This document shows, piece by piece, positions 3,067-49,661 of a stretch of 50,611 bases of DNA; positions within the stretch are counted from its first letter, which is position 1; every line of letters begins with the position of its first letter. The notes beneath the pieces were generated by a model. The model made no database searches, was not told where the DNA came from, and worked only from the letters and a program-made list of their open reading frames with translations. The DNA is from a virus, in IMG/VR virus record IMGVR_UViG_3300036466_000252, positions 1-50,611 of that record; one strand, given 5' to 3'. The position numbers and the translations under genes are program-made.

Positions 3067-3402
3067 TCAGCCTGCAGCGTCCTTGCAATCTGTTTTCGCG
3101 CCGCCCCGCTTTTCGGTAATTGACTGGACGGTATCGCCCATGATCCGCCCGATTGTGCGGCGGGCGTCCTCGCTGCCACTTGCCGCGCATTCCAGCAGAA
3201 ACGACATTTCAGATATTCCGCTGCCCGGCGTTATCACCCGGCTTACACTCGAGAAGCTGGCGGTGGTGTAGAACAGGGCGAAGTGGTCGCCGTGTTCCGG
3301 GTGCTTGCTAGGGATCATGGCGACGGAAAAGCCGTCACAGTCAAACATGGCCCCGGCGTCGGTTATGGTGGCGCGGTCAGCGATAAGGCTATGGATGCTC
3401 AT
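3067..3402 (-). CDS. Hypothetical small phage protein
   Basis: A 111-residue soluble protein and the last gene of the small-gene operon. Its ATG overlaps the previous stop (ATGA at 3399-3402). It has a mixed alpha/beta composition with a central SFLLECAASGSEDARRTIGR helix and no clear motif. Not recognised. Confidence 0.65.
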   Translation of the reverse strand: MSIHSLIADRATITDAGAMFDCDGFSVAMIPSKHPEHGDHFALFYTTASFSSVSRVITPGSGISEMSFLLECAASGSEDARRTIGRIMGDTVQSITEKRGGAKTDCKDAAG

Positions 3403-44618: not shown

Positions 44619-46550
44619 TTACAGGTATGCGCTGTCACTTGTGCGGCGTTTCTTTGGCTGCATTGCCGAAAGGCTAAATCCATCGTCTTCGTCGTCGTCA
44701 CTGCTGGCGGCCGGCTTCGTGGCCATGGCCTCAAGCTCCGCGCGACGGTCAGCCCATGCGTCTTCATTCCAGCGGTCAATGCCCACCACGTAGGCCGCTG
44801 CCCGGTTGTAGACGTGGGTATCGAGCGCCTCGTTACGCAGGCGCGTTTGCTCCCACACGTATTTCCGGTATCCCTGCTTATCCACGCGCATGACCAGTTG
44901 TTCGGCAGTCAGCTGCTCGAAATACTCGGCATCGTATTGCGGGAAGTGGCAGTAGCCGTGCGGCACGTCCGCGCTTTCGTCCACTGGCATATCCTGCTTC
45001 AGCCAGCCGTATATTTCAGCCTTGACGTGGTTCGTGCCGATGTTCCATGCCTGCACCCCGCCCTTCACCTTGCGCCCCTTCCGGTTGACGTCCTTGAGGC
45101 GCGGGATGTTGATAACTTGCTGCTGCGTGGCGTTACCCATGACCGGGATGATCGTGCTGCGCGGGTAGCGGCGGCAGAAGTCATAGACCACCTGCGTATT
45201 GAAGCCCGCATCGACGGCCGTTAGCTGAATGCCAAGCTCTGCGCCATTCGCGTGGGTGAACTTCTCCCGCATAAGCGCAGCGAAGGCTTCCCAGCAGCCG
45301 CCCGGCTCATCAAGGGCTGACGTGTCGCCCGGCAGTACCCGGTAATCGACTGACCAATGCTCCATGCCCGGTGCCCACGCCATGACCTCGGCCTCGATGC
45401 GGTCTTTCTGCACGTCCGCCGCCATGGTCAGGATGATGCCGCCGTCTGGCACGGTGCCGATGGTGTAGGTTTCGCGGCGGTCATACAGCCTGCGCCACTC
45501 GGGCGCGTCGCCCTTCTCTGCCCATGTCTCGCCCAGCACGGTGTTCACGAACGCGCGGAGCTTCTCCGGGTTGCCCTGCGCCGCCATGAAGTCATCACGG
45601 GCATCGCTCCAGCTGTACCAGCCCAGCGGGCTGTAAAGGCTGTTCACGTGGAAGCCTACGGTGCCGGGCTTGCGGGCCTTGGCTGTGGCCCTGTATTCGC
45701 CCTTTGCCAGCATGCCGGTCTTCTCGTGCTCGTCTATCAGGACGCCGCATTCCTCGCACATGTACTGGGCGGGCTTGGTGGTGTCGTCCTTGTCATAGAC
45801 CACATTGCCCCAGCGCAAGGGCTGGTAGTGGTTACAGTGCGGGCAGGGCACGTAGTAGTAACGCTTGTCGGACTGCTCGAACCCGGCTTCGATCTTGCTG
45901 CGCCCGTGGAAGGTGGGCGTGCTGACGTAGAACAGCTTCCGGCGCTTGTACGTCCTCGCGCGCGCTCGAGCCAAGTCCAGCGGGTCGCCCTCGCCGTCAA
46001 GGTCGCCCGGGTAGGCGTCCACCTCGTCAAGGAACAGATAGCGGGCCGGCATAGAGCGCAGCCCGGTGGCGCTGTTGGCCCCGGTCAGGATCAGCACGCC
46101 GCCCGGGAAGTCCTTGCTGAATTGACTGTTGCCGCCGTCGCGGCTGCGGGCCGTCGCCACCTTCTCCGCCAGCCGGGGCGTCTCGGTGAGCATGGGGTCG
46201 ATACGGGTGCGCACGTTACGCTTCTGCATGTCCAACGTTGGCTGCACCGCCAGCATGGGGCCGGGGGCATTGTCGATCACGTAGCCGATCCAGTTGTTCC
46301 CGGTTTCAGTCGCGCCGATCTGGGCACCCTTCATGAACCAGACTTCTTGCGTAGGGCTGGTGACGCTCAATTCGTCCATGATCGCGCGCAGATAAGGCGT
46401 GCGGCTGGTCCGCCACTGGCCCGGCTCTGCCGCAGCGCGCTGCGATAACCTGCGGTGCTTATCGGCCCACTCGCTGACCGTCAGGATGGGGTCAGGGCGC
46501 AAGCCGCTGGAAAGCGCATCACCTACCGCTTGCGAGGCTTTCAAAAGCAT
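44619..46550 (-). CDS. terL: Terminase large subunit (lambda gpA/GpA family)
   Basis: A 643-residue protein (lambda A is 641). KGAQIGATET (about 74-83) is the ATPase Walker A region and YLFLDEVDAYPGD (171-183) the Walker B region. The C-terminal nuclease domain has AVDAGFNTQVVYDFCRR and NHVKAEIYGWLKQD. A CPHC...CEEC zinc-like knuckle lies between. It cuts and translocates DNA. The start overlaps the terS stop by 32 bases. Confidence 0.95.
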   Translation of the reverse strand: MLLKASQAVGDALSSGLRPDPILTVSEWADKHRRLSQRAAAEPGQWRTSRTPYLRAIMDELSVTSPTQEVWFMKGAQIGATETGNNWIGYVIDNAPGPMLAVQPTLDMQKRNVRTRIDPMLTETPRLAEKVATARSRDGGNSQFSKDFPGGVLILTGANSATGLRSMPARYLFLDEVDAYPGDLDGEGDPLDLARARARTYKRRKLFYVSTPTFHGRSKIEAGFEQSDKRYYYVPCPHCNHYQPLRWGNVVYDKDDTTKPAQYMCEECGVLIDEHEKTGMLAKGEYRATAKARKPGTVGFHVNSLYSPLGWYSWSDARDDFMAAQGNPEKLRAFVNTVLGETWAEKGDAPEWRRLYDRRETYTIGTVPDGGIILTMAADVQKDRIEAEVMAWAPGMEHWSVDYRVLPGDTSALDEPGGCWEAFAALMREKFTHANGAELGIQLTAVDAGFNTQVVYDFCRRYPRSTIIPVMGNATQQQVINIPRLKDVNRKGRKVKGGVQAWNIGTNHVKAEIYGWLKQDMPVDESADVPHGYCHFPQYDAEYFEQLTAEQLVMRVDKQGYRKYVWEQTRLRNEALDTHVYNRAAAYVVGIDRWNEDAWADRRAELEAMATKPAASSDDDEDDGFSLSAMQPKKRRTSDSAYL

Positions 46551-47139
46551 CAGCTATCTCCTCGAGCGCGTTGGTGATTTCCGTCTGAAGCATGAGCGCC
46601 ACGGCGTGCTGGTCGGTCATGCCCGCCAGCTCGCCCGACAGGCGGTCAGGCAGCTGCCCCAGCCTGTCACGCATGCCACGGGACGCATTGAACAACTCGA
46701 CCCGTAGATCGTCGCGGCGCACCAGCTCGCCGGCCTTTTCTTCGTAGTCCAGCTGCGCCAGCTTGGCCTGATAGGTTTCGCGCACGGTGCGCGCCTTCTG
46801 GTACTGCCCGGCACTGGTGTTGGCTGCGGACTGGTCAAGGCTGGCGGTAGACTCGCCCGCCAGCGCCCCACGCTGGTCATCAACGCCGCCAGTCTTGCCC
46901 CGGGGCGTGCCGATCTTATCCGCGCGCCGCTGGCCCGCTGCATGGTTCTTGCCCTGCATGGTGTTGTCGCGCCAGTGCTTGGCCGCGCGCTCATAATCCA
47001 GAATGACCGGCCGGCCGTTGGTCGGGTGCACCCCCACGCAATCAGCCGGGATGCGCCCGGTATTGATGGCCTTGCGCACGGCTACGCCTGACACGTCCAT
47101 GCGACGCCCCATTTCGCGCAATGAAATACCGTTTTCCAT
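46519..47139 (-). CDS. terS: Terminase small subunit (Nu1-like)
   Basis: A 206-residue protein. The N-terminal winged helix-turn-helix ISLREMGRRMDVSGVAVRKA with TGRIPADCVG and NGRPVILDYERAAKHW resembles Nu1-type packaging proteins. A Gln/Ala-rich linker is followed by a helical oligomerisation domain (AKLAQLDYEEKAGELVRRDD). It recognises cos. It is the first gene of the head operon proper, with the phage dyad 38 bases upstream. Confidence 0.88.
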   Translation of the reverse strand: MENGISLREMGRRMDVSGVAVRKAINTGRIPADCVGVHPTNGRPVILDYERAAKHWRDNTMQGKNHAAGQRRADKIGTPRGKTGGVDDQRGALAGESTASLDQSAANTSAGQYQKARTVRETYQAKLAQLDYEEKAGELVRRDDLRVELFNASRGMRDRLGQLPDRLSGELAGMTDQHAVALMLQTEITNALEEIADAFESLASGR

Positions 47140-47205: not shown

Positions 47206-47433
47206 ATGCCCGTGAAAAAAATTGACACCCTGCGGGACTACATGAGCGCCGGCCAGTGGCATGAAGCCATCAAGCTGGCGGCCAAGTTCCCGCGCCTTGG
47301 CGAGCACAAAGTCGCCATCACCCGGGCCAAGGATGCCATCGTCAACCCGGGGTTCTGCAGGCAGCTGGGCCGCGACCCTGACGCGCTCATCGTCGCCGGG
47401 ATCGCGGCCCTGCAGGACCGTTATTCTTCTTGA
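47206..47433 (+). CDS. Small conserved-looking protein, opposite strand
   Basis: A 75-residue protein starting MPVKKIDTLRDYMSAGQWHE with GAGGA upstream. It is helical, with KLAAKFPRLGEHKVAITRA and a final LIVAGIAALQDRY helix. It is the only plus-strand gene inside the late leftward block and converges with the methyltransferase gene, overlapping its 3' end by 13 bases. An early function under the adjacent dyad is plausible. Confidence 0.7.
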   Translation: MPVKKIDTLRDYMSAGQWHEAIKLAAKFPRLGEHKVAITRAKDAIVNPGFCRQLGRDPDALIVAGIAALQDRYSS

Positions 47434-49661
47434 TCCTCGACGCCATCGACCGCGCCAAACTCGACGGGGCCGATGGCCTGCGTTGCCAGCTTCGCATCGC
47501 CCTTGACAAAAACGAGAATATTCTGATGGGTCTTGCCCATCTTGCGCCCGGCCTCGAACTGCTTGCCTGCACGTAGCGGCAGCGTCCCGGCCGGGGTCAC
47601 CAGAATTGCCTCGTTGTAGTAATGCAGGCCAGCCGCCCGGAAGGCCTCAACCGTGTCGCCCACGAAGTTGTAATAATGCCCCCGCTTATCCCTGACGTCG
47701 CCCACCACAAAGCACGCGAAACGGTTGTCTTTCAGCAAAGTGCACGTTTCGCGGATTATCTCGAAATATGCGTCCTTGAATTCCTCATATCCCAGCGTTG
47801 ACAGGTCGTTCGGGTCGTCGCTGTACACCTCAAGGTCAGCATACGGGGGGCAGCTGAATACCATGTCACCTTCGACGCCTGTTAGCGTTTGGGTAATGAA
47901 ACGGCTATCGGCATTGTGCCATGTCGGCTCGCCCACCGGGGCCGCAACCACCTCGCTGGCCCGGATGCCCACCACCCACAGCAGATCGCCATCCTGCAGG
48001 TGCGGCAGGCACTTCGCCTCATAGATCGGGTCAAGCCGCAGCCCGTGCAGGTCGGTCACCGGGGCGCTGTCGTGGTAGTCCAGTCCGCTTTCCACCAGCG
48101 TGACCATATCGCGCCAGTCAGCCGGGGCGTACTCGTCAAGCCTGCCCACGGGGTCAGCGCCCACCCGGACACCCACCACGGGCACATCAAGCCCGCGCTG
48201 CTTGAGGCCGTGCAGGATGCCCGCCAGTGACATGCCGCTGCCCACCGGGACCACGATGCGCTCAATGTCGTCTGGCAGGTTGGCCACCTGACCGGCAGTC
48301 GCGTGGATGGCAGCGTGGCACTCCATGCCAAATGGGATTTCCCGCCAGCCAGTCTCGGCAGCGTCTTCCCGGGCACGGGCGATGATGACGTTGTTGTAAC
48401 CGGCTTTGTGCTGGACCACCTCAGCGCCGGCCGCTTGGGCCATGCGCACCTCTGGCGACAGTTCGCCCTGCGGGGTGTGGACCCGGCACGGGATGCCCAG
48501 CTTGCGGGCCACCTGCGCCACGATGTTGACTTGCGGGCTTGACCGGCTGCCGGCAGTCACAAGCCCTTGCGCGCCCTGCGCCAGCGTCCAGCAAGTGCGG
48601 ACCTTGCCGCCGCGACCACCGCCCACACAGAACGCATCGTCGCGCTTGACGCGGTACGGGCCGCGATCCTCAACCGGGGTCAGGTCCGGCGTGTTGTCGT
48701 CCGCGAAGTCAGGCAGCGGGATTTCGATGCCGGACTTGTCGCGCATTTCCGCCCACTGCAGCCGGTTGGCCTCGACTTGTTCGGCGCGCAGCTCGCTGCC
48801 GTGGTAGTTGCGCCCCAGCTTGGCCGCCACAACGCCCCGGACACTGCCGCCAGCGAACGGGTCGATAATCGTGCCGCCCAGCGGGCAGAACCAGCGGTAG
48901 GCCAGCTCGGTCATTACCGGGTCAAAGACACTGCCGCCCTCGGCGTTACCCCGGCCGCTGAAATACTCGTACTTGCCTTCGCTGCTGTTGACCGTGGGCG
49001 TTGCCAGTCCGTCACGCCCCAGCTCGCTGCGGATACCCAGCGCCATCCATCCGCGCTTGCGCGCCTGCCACCAGCCATCACGGGCAGACAGGACGGTAAA
49101 CGGCGGCACGCCGAAGCGGTCACGCAGCGCCCCGACCTGCTTGGCCTGTTGCGGCTCTTCGTCGTCTTCGTCGTCTTCGTCTTCGTCGTGGTCACGGTCG
49201 CCCGGCGCGCCCTCGTTGTCGTCCAGTTCGCCCAGCAGGCCATCCAATTCGTCAGCGTCGAAGCCGGTCAGGTCAAGGTCAAAGCCGCTGGACTCGAGCG
49301 CCGCCAGCTCGCTGGCCAGCATTTCTTCATCCCAGCCGCCCAGCTCCGCCAGCTTGTTATTAGCCAGCACGTATGCCCGGCGCTGGTCTTCGGTCATGTG
49401 GGTGAGGGGCACCACCGGCACCTCGTCCATATTCAAGCGCTGCGCCGCCATCAGGCGGCCGTGCCCGGCAATGATTTCGCCGCTGGCCTCGTCCACCAGA
49501 ATCGGATTATTGAAACCCATTTCGGTGATGCTGGCGGCGATCTTCGCCACCTGCACCGCGTCATGGGTCTTCGCGTTGCGGGCGTAGGGCATGAGCCGCT
49601 CAAGCGGCCAGTGTTCAATCTTGTTGGCCATCTGCGGCCGGAATGTGCGGGGTGCGTTCAT
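47421..49661 (-). CDS. ParB-like / DNA methyltransferase with inserted PLP enzyme domain
   Basis: A 746-residue protein. Residues about 17-110 form a ParB/sulfiredoxin-like domain (GEIIAGHGRLMAAQRL). An acidic linker follows (147-170, almost only Asp/Glu). The amino-methyltransferase then has motif I DPFAGGSVRG (267-276) and motif IV SCPPYADLEVYSDDP (603-617). Between these motifs sits a fold-type II PLP enzyme domain (about 335-570). It has GGGRGGKVRT (347-356) with Lys 353 at the Schiff-base position, GSRSSPQ (371-377) and the phosphate-binding loop GSGMSLAG (474-481). The order I-insert-IV resembles alpha-class methyltransferases, with the PLP domain in the target-recognition position. It probably modifies DNA bases; the chemistry is unknown. 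Confidence 0.85.
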   Translation of the reverse strand: MNAPRTFRPQMANKIEHWPLERLMPYARNAKTHDAVQVAKIAASITEMGFNNPILVDEASGEIIAGHGRLMAAQRLNMDEVPVVPLTHMTEDQRRAYVLANNKLAELGGWDEEMLASELAALESSGFDLDLTGFDADELDGLLGELDDNEGAPGDRDHDEDEDDEDDEEPQQAKQVGALRDRFGVPPFTVLSARDGWWQARKRGWMALGIRSELGRDGLATPTVNSSEGKYEYFSGRGNAEGGSVFDPVMTELAYRWFCPLGGTIIDPFAGGSVRGVVAAKLGRNYHGSELRAEQVEANRLQWAEMRDKSGIEIPLPDFADDNTPDLTPVEDRGPYRVKRDDAFCVGGGRGGKVRTCWTLAQGAQGLVTAGSRSSPQVNIVAQVARKLGIPCRVHTPQGELSPEVRMAQAAGAEVVQHKAGYNNVIIARAREDAAETGWREIPFGMECHAAIHATAGQVANLPDDIERIVVPVGSGMSLAGILHGLKQRGLDVPVVGVRVGADPVGRLDEYAPADWRDMVTLVESGLDYHDSAPVTDLHGLRLDPIYEAKCLPHLQDGDLLWVVGIRASEVVAAPVGEPTWHNADSRFITQTLTGVEGDMVFSCPPYADLEVYSDDPNDLSTLGYEEFKDAYFEIIRETCTLLKDNRFACFVVGDVRDKRGHYYNFVGDTVEAFRAAGLHYYNEAILVTPAGTLPLRAGKQFEAGRKMGKTHQNILVFVKGDAKLATQAIGPVEFGAVDGVEDQEE

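Follow-up and report, generated by a model that had tools for sequence, protein, structure and literature searches.

A gene in the packaging region of a virus record of 50,611 bases, analysed at full length and called the window here, encodes a DNA methyltransferase (MTase) of the N6/N4 type with a ParB-like N-terminus and, between MTase motifs I and IV, a fold-type II PLP enzyme domain. The PLP unit is a partner enzyme that recurs in many phages and prophages and not one phage's structural oddity, because ParB-MTases of one family are accompanied by it as an insert, as a C-terminal fusion or as a neighbouring gene, with the association scattered over the MTase tree. By its sequence the PLP domain belongs, among phage proteins, to the family of the PLP protein that Salmonella phage ViI encodes. 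A sister clade of these MTases is paired with a SAM decarboxylase (AdoMetDC) and has a switched motif I. We tentatively propose, giving the idea a little under an even chance, that the MTase half takes the 3-amino-3-carboxypropyl arm from SAM and attaches it to a base and the PLP half then decarboxylates it, the sister clade decarboxylating SAM first.

Architecture and position of the gene

The open reading frame at 47421-49661 on the minus strand is open from its ATG over 746 aa. Its parts and the two genes downstream are:

47421-49661, minus strand: whole gene, in the order ParB, MTase motif I, PLP insert, MTase motif IV; 746 aa; phrog_498, E=1e-137
49257-49622, minus strand: ParB/Srx-like N-terminal domain, residues 14-135; ParB_N, E=6e-5; phrog_15396, E=4.5e-65; folded in the model
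49014-49127, minus strand: conserved block around RFGVPPFTVLSARDGWWQARKRGWMALGIRSELGR, residues 179-216, from alignments
48744-48932, minus strand: N-terminal half of the MTase with motif I, DPFAGGSVRG (residues 267-276, 48834-48863)
47946-48686, minus strand: fold-type II PLP domain, residues 326-572, with Lys353, Arg340/Asp342, Ser375, GSG 474-476 and Tyr547-Glu548-x-Lys550
47457-47933, minus strand: C-terminal half of the MTase, residues 577-735, with motif IV SCPPYADLEVYSDD (SCPPY, residues 603-607) and HQNILVFVKGD
46519-47139, minus strand: terminase small subunit, the next gene downstream (packaging locus); phrog_57, E=1.4e-29
44619-46550, minus strand: terminase large subunit; phrog_15, E=5e-243

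Pfam places ParB_N at residues 31-92 (E=6e-5, its bits slightly below the curated cut-off), PALP at residues 361-509 (E=1.2e-18) and N6_N4_Mtase in two stretches that flank PALP (E=2e-10), and the phrog_498 profile (E=1.1e-137) matches both MTase halves and skips the PLP insert. Pfam and PHROG together bear out all four blocks named in the preliminary description, and the motifs that it cited are in place: DPFAGGSVRG (267-276), GGK (351-353), GSGMSLAG (474-481) and SCPPY (603-607). Its fold type for the insert stands as well, while the length of about 235 aa has to be corrected to about 247 aa (326-572), some 90 aa shorter than cellular ACC deaminase. The joined MTase halves match phrog_498 and thereby place the protein in the phage ParB-N6/N4 MTase family, of which both motif I (DPFAGG..RG) and motif IV ([ST]CPPY..LE.Y) are present; the RFGVPPFTVLSARDGWWQARKRGWMALGIRSELGR block is shared in alignments by the PLP, AdoMetDC and orphan MTase classes. 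The predicted structure of the whole protein has a mean pLDDT of 76.6 and a pTM of 0.46, with the relative arrangement of the domains not fixed by the model, and most of residues 320-570, the PLP region, reach a pLDDT of about 86-97. The architecture is confirmed as real and beyond chance, since the cited residues are invariant or nearly so in 20 full-length homologues and the PLP region is predicted with confidence.

The gene lies directly upstream of those for the terminase small subunit, the terminase large subunit and the portal, the same 'ParB-Tls' placement as that of the ParB-MTases of Paracoccus prophages (PMC6536676). Together with phiFL3A gp36 and Listeria B054 gp77, these represent the ParB-fused N6/N4 MTases of phrog_498, with which the window protein shares a similar ParB N-terminus, the VPPFSVLD block, motif I DPFAGGSVRG, motif IV CPPY and the place just upstream of terminase genes; the window protein differs in having a PLP enzyme between the two motifs. 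No gene for 5-hmdUMP synthesis, a 5-hmdU kinase or an amino-acid transferase was found among the 10 window ORFs scanned. A small ORF at 47206-47433 on the plus strand, opposite to and between the MTase and terminase genes, resembles by eye small ORFs near the MTase or PLP gene of two other loci (3111-3359 in our locus L036 and 6251-7120 in L043).

On the MTase side a fold search returned ordinary methyltransferases, Trm11 being the best match, and no homology was found to known aminocarboxypropyl- or aminopropyltransferases. The prophage ParB-MTase BCE_0392, a candidate member of the phrog_498 family, gave weak m6dA in E. coli (PMC3459991). A comparison of classes found no residues, at motif I or elsewhere, that distinguish MTases with a PLP partner from partnerless ones, and the latter may be plain methylases.

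The PLP unit and its distribution

As the preliminary description had supposed, the middle region has a PLP fold. It is predicted confidently and, within the PDB, comes closest to D-cysteine desulfhydrase and ACC deaminase (E=2e-12; Foldseek 4d8t, E=1.9e-12, and 1j0a, E=1.2e-11). The insert holds the PLP lysine, the carboxylate-loop Ser and the Gly-rich phosphate loop of fold-type II enzymes, Lys353 aligning with the PLP lysine of the cellular enzymes (GGNK), and an alignment of 20 fused homologues has Lys353, Arg340, Asp342, Ser375-Pro-Gln, PFGMEC, GSG and Tyr547-Glu548-x-Lys550 invariant. The PLP domain is therefore probably catalytically active. Aligned with cellular enzymes, Tyr547-Glu548 corresponds to the DPVYEGK motif of ACC deaminase and does not match the YTGK of D-cysteine desulfhydrase; the SPQ Ser and the Tyr-Glu/Asp-x-Lys of phage PLP units also align with ACC deaminase. 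The fold, PLP lysine and carboxylate-loop Ser are thus common to the window domain and both cellular enzymes (PDB 1j0a, 1f2d, 4d8t), and its Tyr-Glu-x-Lys is as in ACC deaminase, whereas SPQ replaces SN[QH] and the C-terminal HLGG loop is missing. It is not ACC deaminase proper: the NCBIfam equivalog TIGR01274 gives 14.7 bits against a cut-off of 392, the SNQ loop is absent and the C-terminus is shortened. By fold the insert falls in the ACC deaminase group, far under the cut-offs of the named enzymes.

Its nearest phage relative is the PLP protein of ViI. The window domain matches phrog_3650 (E=4.2e-38) over its residues 12-180, its C-terminal part lying outside the profile match, and Vi01_182 of phage ViI matches the same PHROG (E=2.5e-241); aligned directly by hhalign, the two give E=7e-16. 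They share SPQ, GYN..I..R, QVAN[IL]PD and L[FL]W.VG, all absent from the cellular enzymes, and also YE[GA]K. A search with the separate PLP protein of Mycobacterium phage Vincenzo matched 335 phage records, for the greater part from phages of Ackermannviridae size, ViI among them. A second PLP clade, from Rhodobacterales and Erythrobacter phages, is only weakly related to the ViI family. Vi01_182 is a free protein of 424 aa in a phage with a 5-hmdU-derived thymine modification, unlike the window unit, a 247-aa insert within an N6/N4-type MTase. Vi01_182 is a putative PLP decarboxylase of DNA-linked serine; Lee et al. reportedly described, in 2018 and 2021, how serine is joined to 5-hydroxymethyl-dU in DNA and then decarboxylated by a PLP enzyme to give the ViI base. 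In ViI DNA about 43% of thymidines are 5-(2-aminoethoxy)methyl-dU (PMC6449724).

A scan of viral contigs yielded 52 loci, in most of which the PLP unit lies between motifs I and IV. It is fused C-terminally in five (L038, L039, L044, L048 and L052) and encoded as a separate gene in L036, L045, L046, L050, L051 and the phages Vincenzo (L056) and Mae-JY30 (L059); Mycobacterium phage AlanGrant, which like Vincenzo has M. smegmatis mc2 155 as host, also has MTase and PLP in separate genes. The cultured phages Pam4 (of Pseudanabaena), Erythrobacter ZS04 and R6L carry the insert. In bacterial genomes a further scan found the unit once more as an insert (L304), once as a C-terminal fusion (L305) and over 20 times as an adjacent gene; many of these adjacent genes belong to Rhodobacterales. 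When only MTase patterns were used, 77 loci resulted; 6 have a PLP gene no more than 1.5 kb away, and in the other 71 none was in reach. In a tree made from 110 MTase domains without their motif-I columns, the insert label changes at least 14 times, the starred branches force 3 changes, and PLP neighbours are scattered; by this tree the association has been gained, or lost, repeatedly. No recurrent neighbouring enzyme families were found around the PLP loci beyond phage genes.

Homologues with and without the insert, both of which the search found in the ParB-MTase family, also bear on the idea that the insert takes the place of a target-recognition domain. This idea was rejected: in relatives that lack the insert, motifs I and IV are just a few tens of residues apart with no such domain between them, and the same PLP unit is found fused C-terminally or as a separate neighbouring gene.

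A sister clade paired with SAM decarboxylase

Two insert-less relatives, from Pseudomonas phage ZRG1 and Croceibacter phage P2559S, have an AdoMetDC gene downstream that overlaps their own. With both MTases as seeds, a scan found AdoMetDC immediately downstream, mostly overlapping, in 73 of 80 loci. Its patterns included the motif-I sequence but nothing of the decarboxylase, so the scan itself did not produce the pairing. The AdoMetDC keeps its pyruvoyl-forming Ser as well as its catalytic His and Cys. In the reverse scan the decarboxylases nearest the query adjoin sister-clade MTases and a second, pelagiphage-like group does not; this second viral AdoMetDC group (L257-L303) has no MTase and often stands beside clamp-loader-like genes. 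PLP and AdoMetDC are mutually exclusive, no examined locus having both and no AdoMetDC-class locus having a PLP gene nearby.

The pairing goes with a switch in motif I. After removal of near-copies GDxxF is present in 35 of 35 AdoMetDC-paired MTases and in none of 53 PLP-paired ones, whereas GGxxR is found in 51 of the 53 PLP-paired and 94 of 98 partnerless MTases. Both columns are switched in all 54 AdoMetDC-class proteins compared, and the equivalent of Arg275 is lost only in this class; three partnerless MTases also have GDxxF and by that motif are members of the sister clade; one of them is included in the tree, where it groups inside the clade. The AdoMetDC class is one clade, so the switch counts as one or few events.

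The change from GGxxR to GDxxF, a basic residue lost and an acidic one gained, is as expected if decarboxylated SAM is the cofactor, since decarboxylated SAM has no carboxylate and the loop binds the methionine end of SAM. By motif position, placed by eye, the acidic site falls on the x that separates the second and third Gly of GxGxG; in aminopropyltransferases the Asp/Glu of GGG(D/E)G in the motif-I loop binds decarboxylated SAM (PMC11107197). The sister clade, and only this clade, thus combines an AdoMetDC partner with an acidic motif-I residue, like spermidine synthase SpeE, which also uses the AdoMetDC product. The likeness is one of motif position only, as hhalign found no homology between AdoMetDC-class MTases and SpeE (probability 0.2%), and the target of the MTase, unlike that of SpeE, would be DNA.

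Proposed reaction and its alternatives

Under the proposal the gene would encode a two-step DNA-hypermodifying enzyme. Its ParB-guided MTase-like half would give the 3-amino-3-carboxypropyl arm of SAM, and not a methyl group, to an exocyclic base amine of phage DNA; the PLP half would then form a Schiff base with the DNA-linked amino acid and strip its carboxylate, so that the base would end up with a 3-aminopropyl side chain; this positively charged group might block host nucleases. In the sister clade the same product would be reached in the other order, the phage SAM decarboxylase making decarboxylated SAM and the altered-loop MTase transferring the aminopropyl group. The transferred group, the order of the steps, the target base and the protection are all parts that we infer. 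A base with 3-aminopropyl would be the simplest product common to both classes, because the partners are mutually exclusive and both are enzymes of alpha-amino-acid chemistry; Arg275 would be kept in the PLP class because this class would use intact SAM, and decarboxylation on DNA is proposed by analogy with the ViI relative, which presumably acts on serine. That the two classes make up a natural family of DNA aminocarboxypropyl- and aminopropyl-transferases, losing the carboxylate through a built-in PLP decarboxylase after transfer or through AdoMetDC before it, is somewhat less probable.

The recurrence of the PLP unit with one MTase family, its conserved catalytic residues, its homology to the ViI protein and the AdoMetDC pairing with the motif-I switch in the sister clade argue for the two-step proposal. 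Against it, the PLP-class MTase is indistinguishable from the partnerless ones, so that it may just methylate, and the partnerless MTases are left unexplained. The fold search gave ordinary methyltransferases, no homology to the known transferases was found, the motif switch is one or few events, and the second PLP clade is only weakly related to ViI. Decarboxylation would be unusual for a fold-type II PLP enzyme. Products may also vary, as a putative Asp/Asn hydroxylase stands between MTase and PLP genes in L213. A precedent for using modified SAM on DNA is the phage CmoA/CmoX/CmoY carboxymethylcytosine system (PMC12783734), which follows the same logic of a phage DNA MTase homologue with a SAM-changing enzyme and subsequent editing of the group; it differs in its C5-cytosine MTase, carboxy-SAM and amide ligase, and has no PLP enzyme or AdoMetDC. 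A CmoA-like partner suspected in halovirus HCTV-2 was rejected, gp12 being another N6_N4 MTase-like protein.

The main rival, an ordinary N6-adenine or N4-cytosine MTase to which a PLP enzyme with a separate function, such as altering an amino-acid pool or a small substrate, was fused merely because the genes were close in an operon, is unlikely. Its resemblance to the partnerless class, the Pfam N6_N4_Mtase match, the m6dA signal of the candidate relative BCE_0392 (PMC3459991) and the 71 of 77 MTase-pattern loci with no PLP gene in reach all fit this reading; against it, PLP units were repeatedly inserted and fused into the same MTase family, they are akin to a PLP protein from a phage whose DNA bases derive in part from amino acids, and AdoMetDC is paired in parallel with a changed cofactor motif. 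It is quite improbable that the PLP enzyme acts before transfer, turning free SAM (deaminated, for instance, or with its arm edited) into another donor as AdoMetDC would in the sister clade. The two partners replace each other and both act on alpha-amino acids, CmoA/CmoX offers a precedent (PMC12783734), and Glu548 is ACC-deaminase-like, ACC being a product of SAM; yet motif I of the PLP class is the same as in partnerless MTases and changed only in the AdoMetDC class, and the nearest phage relative belongs to a pathway that works on DNA-linked amino acids.

Depletion of SAM as counter-defence, with PLP or AdoMetDC starving host restriction or SAM-based signalling, seems very improbable: phage SAM lyases are known (mentioned in PMC12783734) and both partner types could use SAM, but the PLP unit is fused to an enzyme that requires SAM, sits in a packaging locus and not among early genes, and the motif-I switch would go unexplained. 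A catalytically dead PLP fold, kept for target recognition or as a scaffold, is barely credible. Its place between motifs I and IV would fit, but Lys353 and the phosphate loop do not vary among homologues, the unit is elsewhere a separate gene or C-terminal fusion, and insert-less relatives need no domain there. A role in an amino-acid-bearing DNA modification, as put forward in the preliminary description, is probable, given the ViI PHROG and the AdoMetDC-paired sisters; its new modified base is a step that we infer.

The PLP-ParB-MTase fusion already stands in public records, where that of Pam4 is annotated as a PLP enzyme and that of R6L as a DNA modification methylase; no discussion of the fusion, and no description of a PLP or AdoMetDC partner of ParB-MTases, was found in the literature searched. 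Iyer et al. (NAR, 2013) are said to have predicted phage DNA modifications that use modified SAM derivatives, may already have proposed part of the scheme, and are probably the source that PMC6536676 gives for the ParB-Tls locus. If the proposal is true, MTase relatives that many phage and prophage records label plain methylases would use SAM or decarboxylated SAM to put bulky cationic groups on DNA, and viruses with such genes may attach amino-acid-derived groups rather than plain methyls to their DNA against host defences. Aminopropyl and aminocarboxypropyl chemistry is known for RNA and polyamines, and none was found for DNA in the literature searched; the proposal would directly predict a mass and a cofactor and possibly offer new DNA-labelling tools. 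Even if the donor chemistry is wrong, two findings stand: a link between the ViI PLP family and an uncharacterised PLP family of ParB-MTase loci, and a switch in motif I that goes with having a SAM decarboxylase as partner.

Several loci carry further modules. A Cys-rich domain of about 180 aa, with a weak match to DUF3109 / CxxCxxCC and possibly metal- or Fe-S-binding, is fused in L025 (612-793), L029, L037, L044, L048 and L052, separate in L045 (6991-7566) and also found in L113, L196, L373 and L375; it accompanies PLP-class, AdoMetDC-class and partnerless MTases and is thus a third module. At 3968-7309 in L213 the ParB-MTase is followed by an Asp/Asn beta-hydroxylase (PF05118), the PLP gene and a weakly phosphoribosyltransferase-like ORF, with a 2OG-Fe(II) oxygenase upstream; this operon suggests a hydroxylated amino-acid side chain. 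In L180 (1612-3686) the PLP gene precedes an ORF that is PRTase-like by eye and a radical-SAM protein with a CPNSCFNC motif, and in L043 (3675-5747) some 300 aa with YGNEIE follow the PLP unit, amidoligase-like by eye and with no Pfam match. Staphylococcus phage Alsa_1 (Herelleviridae; L065, 1924-4684) has close together a divergent MTase (TSPPYFNLELY, motif I DPCCGWGMRM), a small CxxC protein and a PLP relative, and in L040 (4597-6762) a PLP gene with no MTase nearby adjoins a NUDIX protein and a ThyX-like protein.
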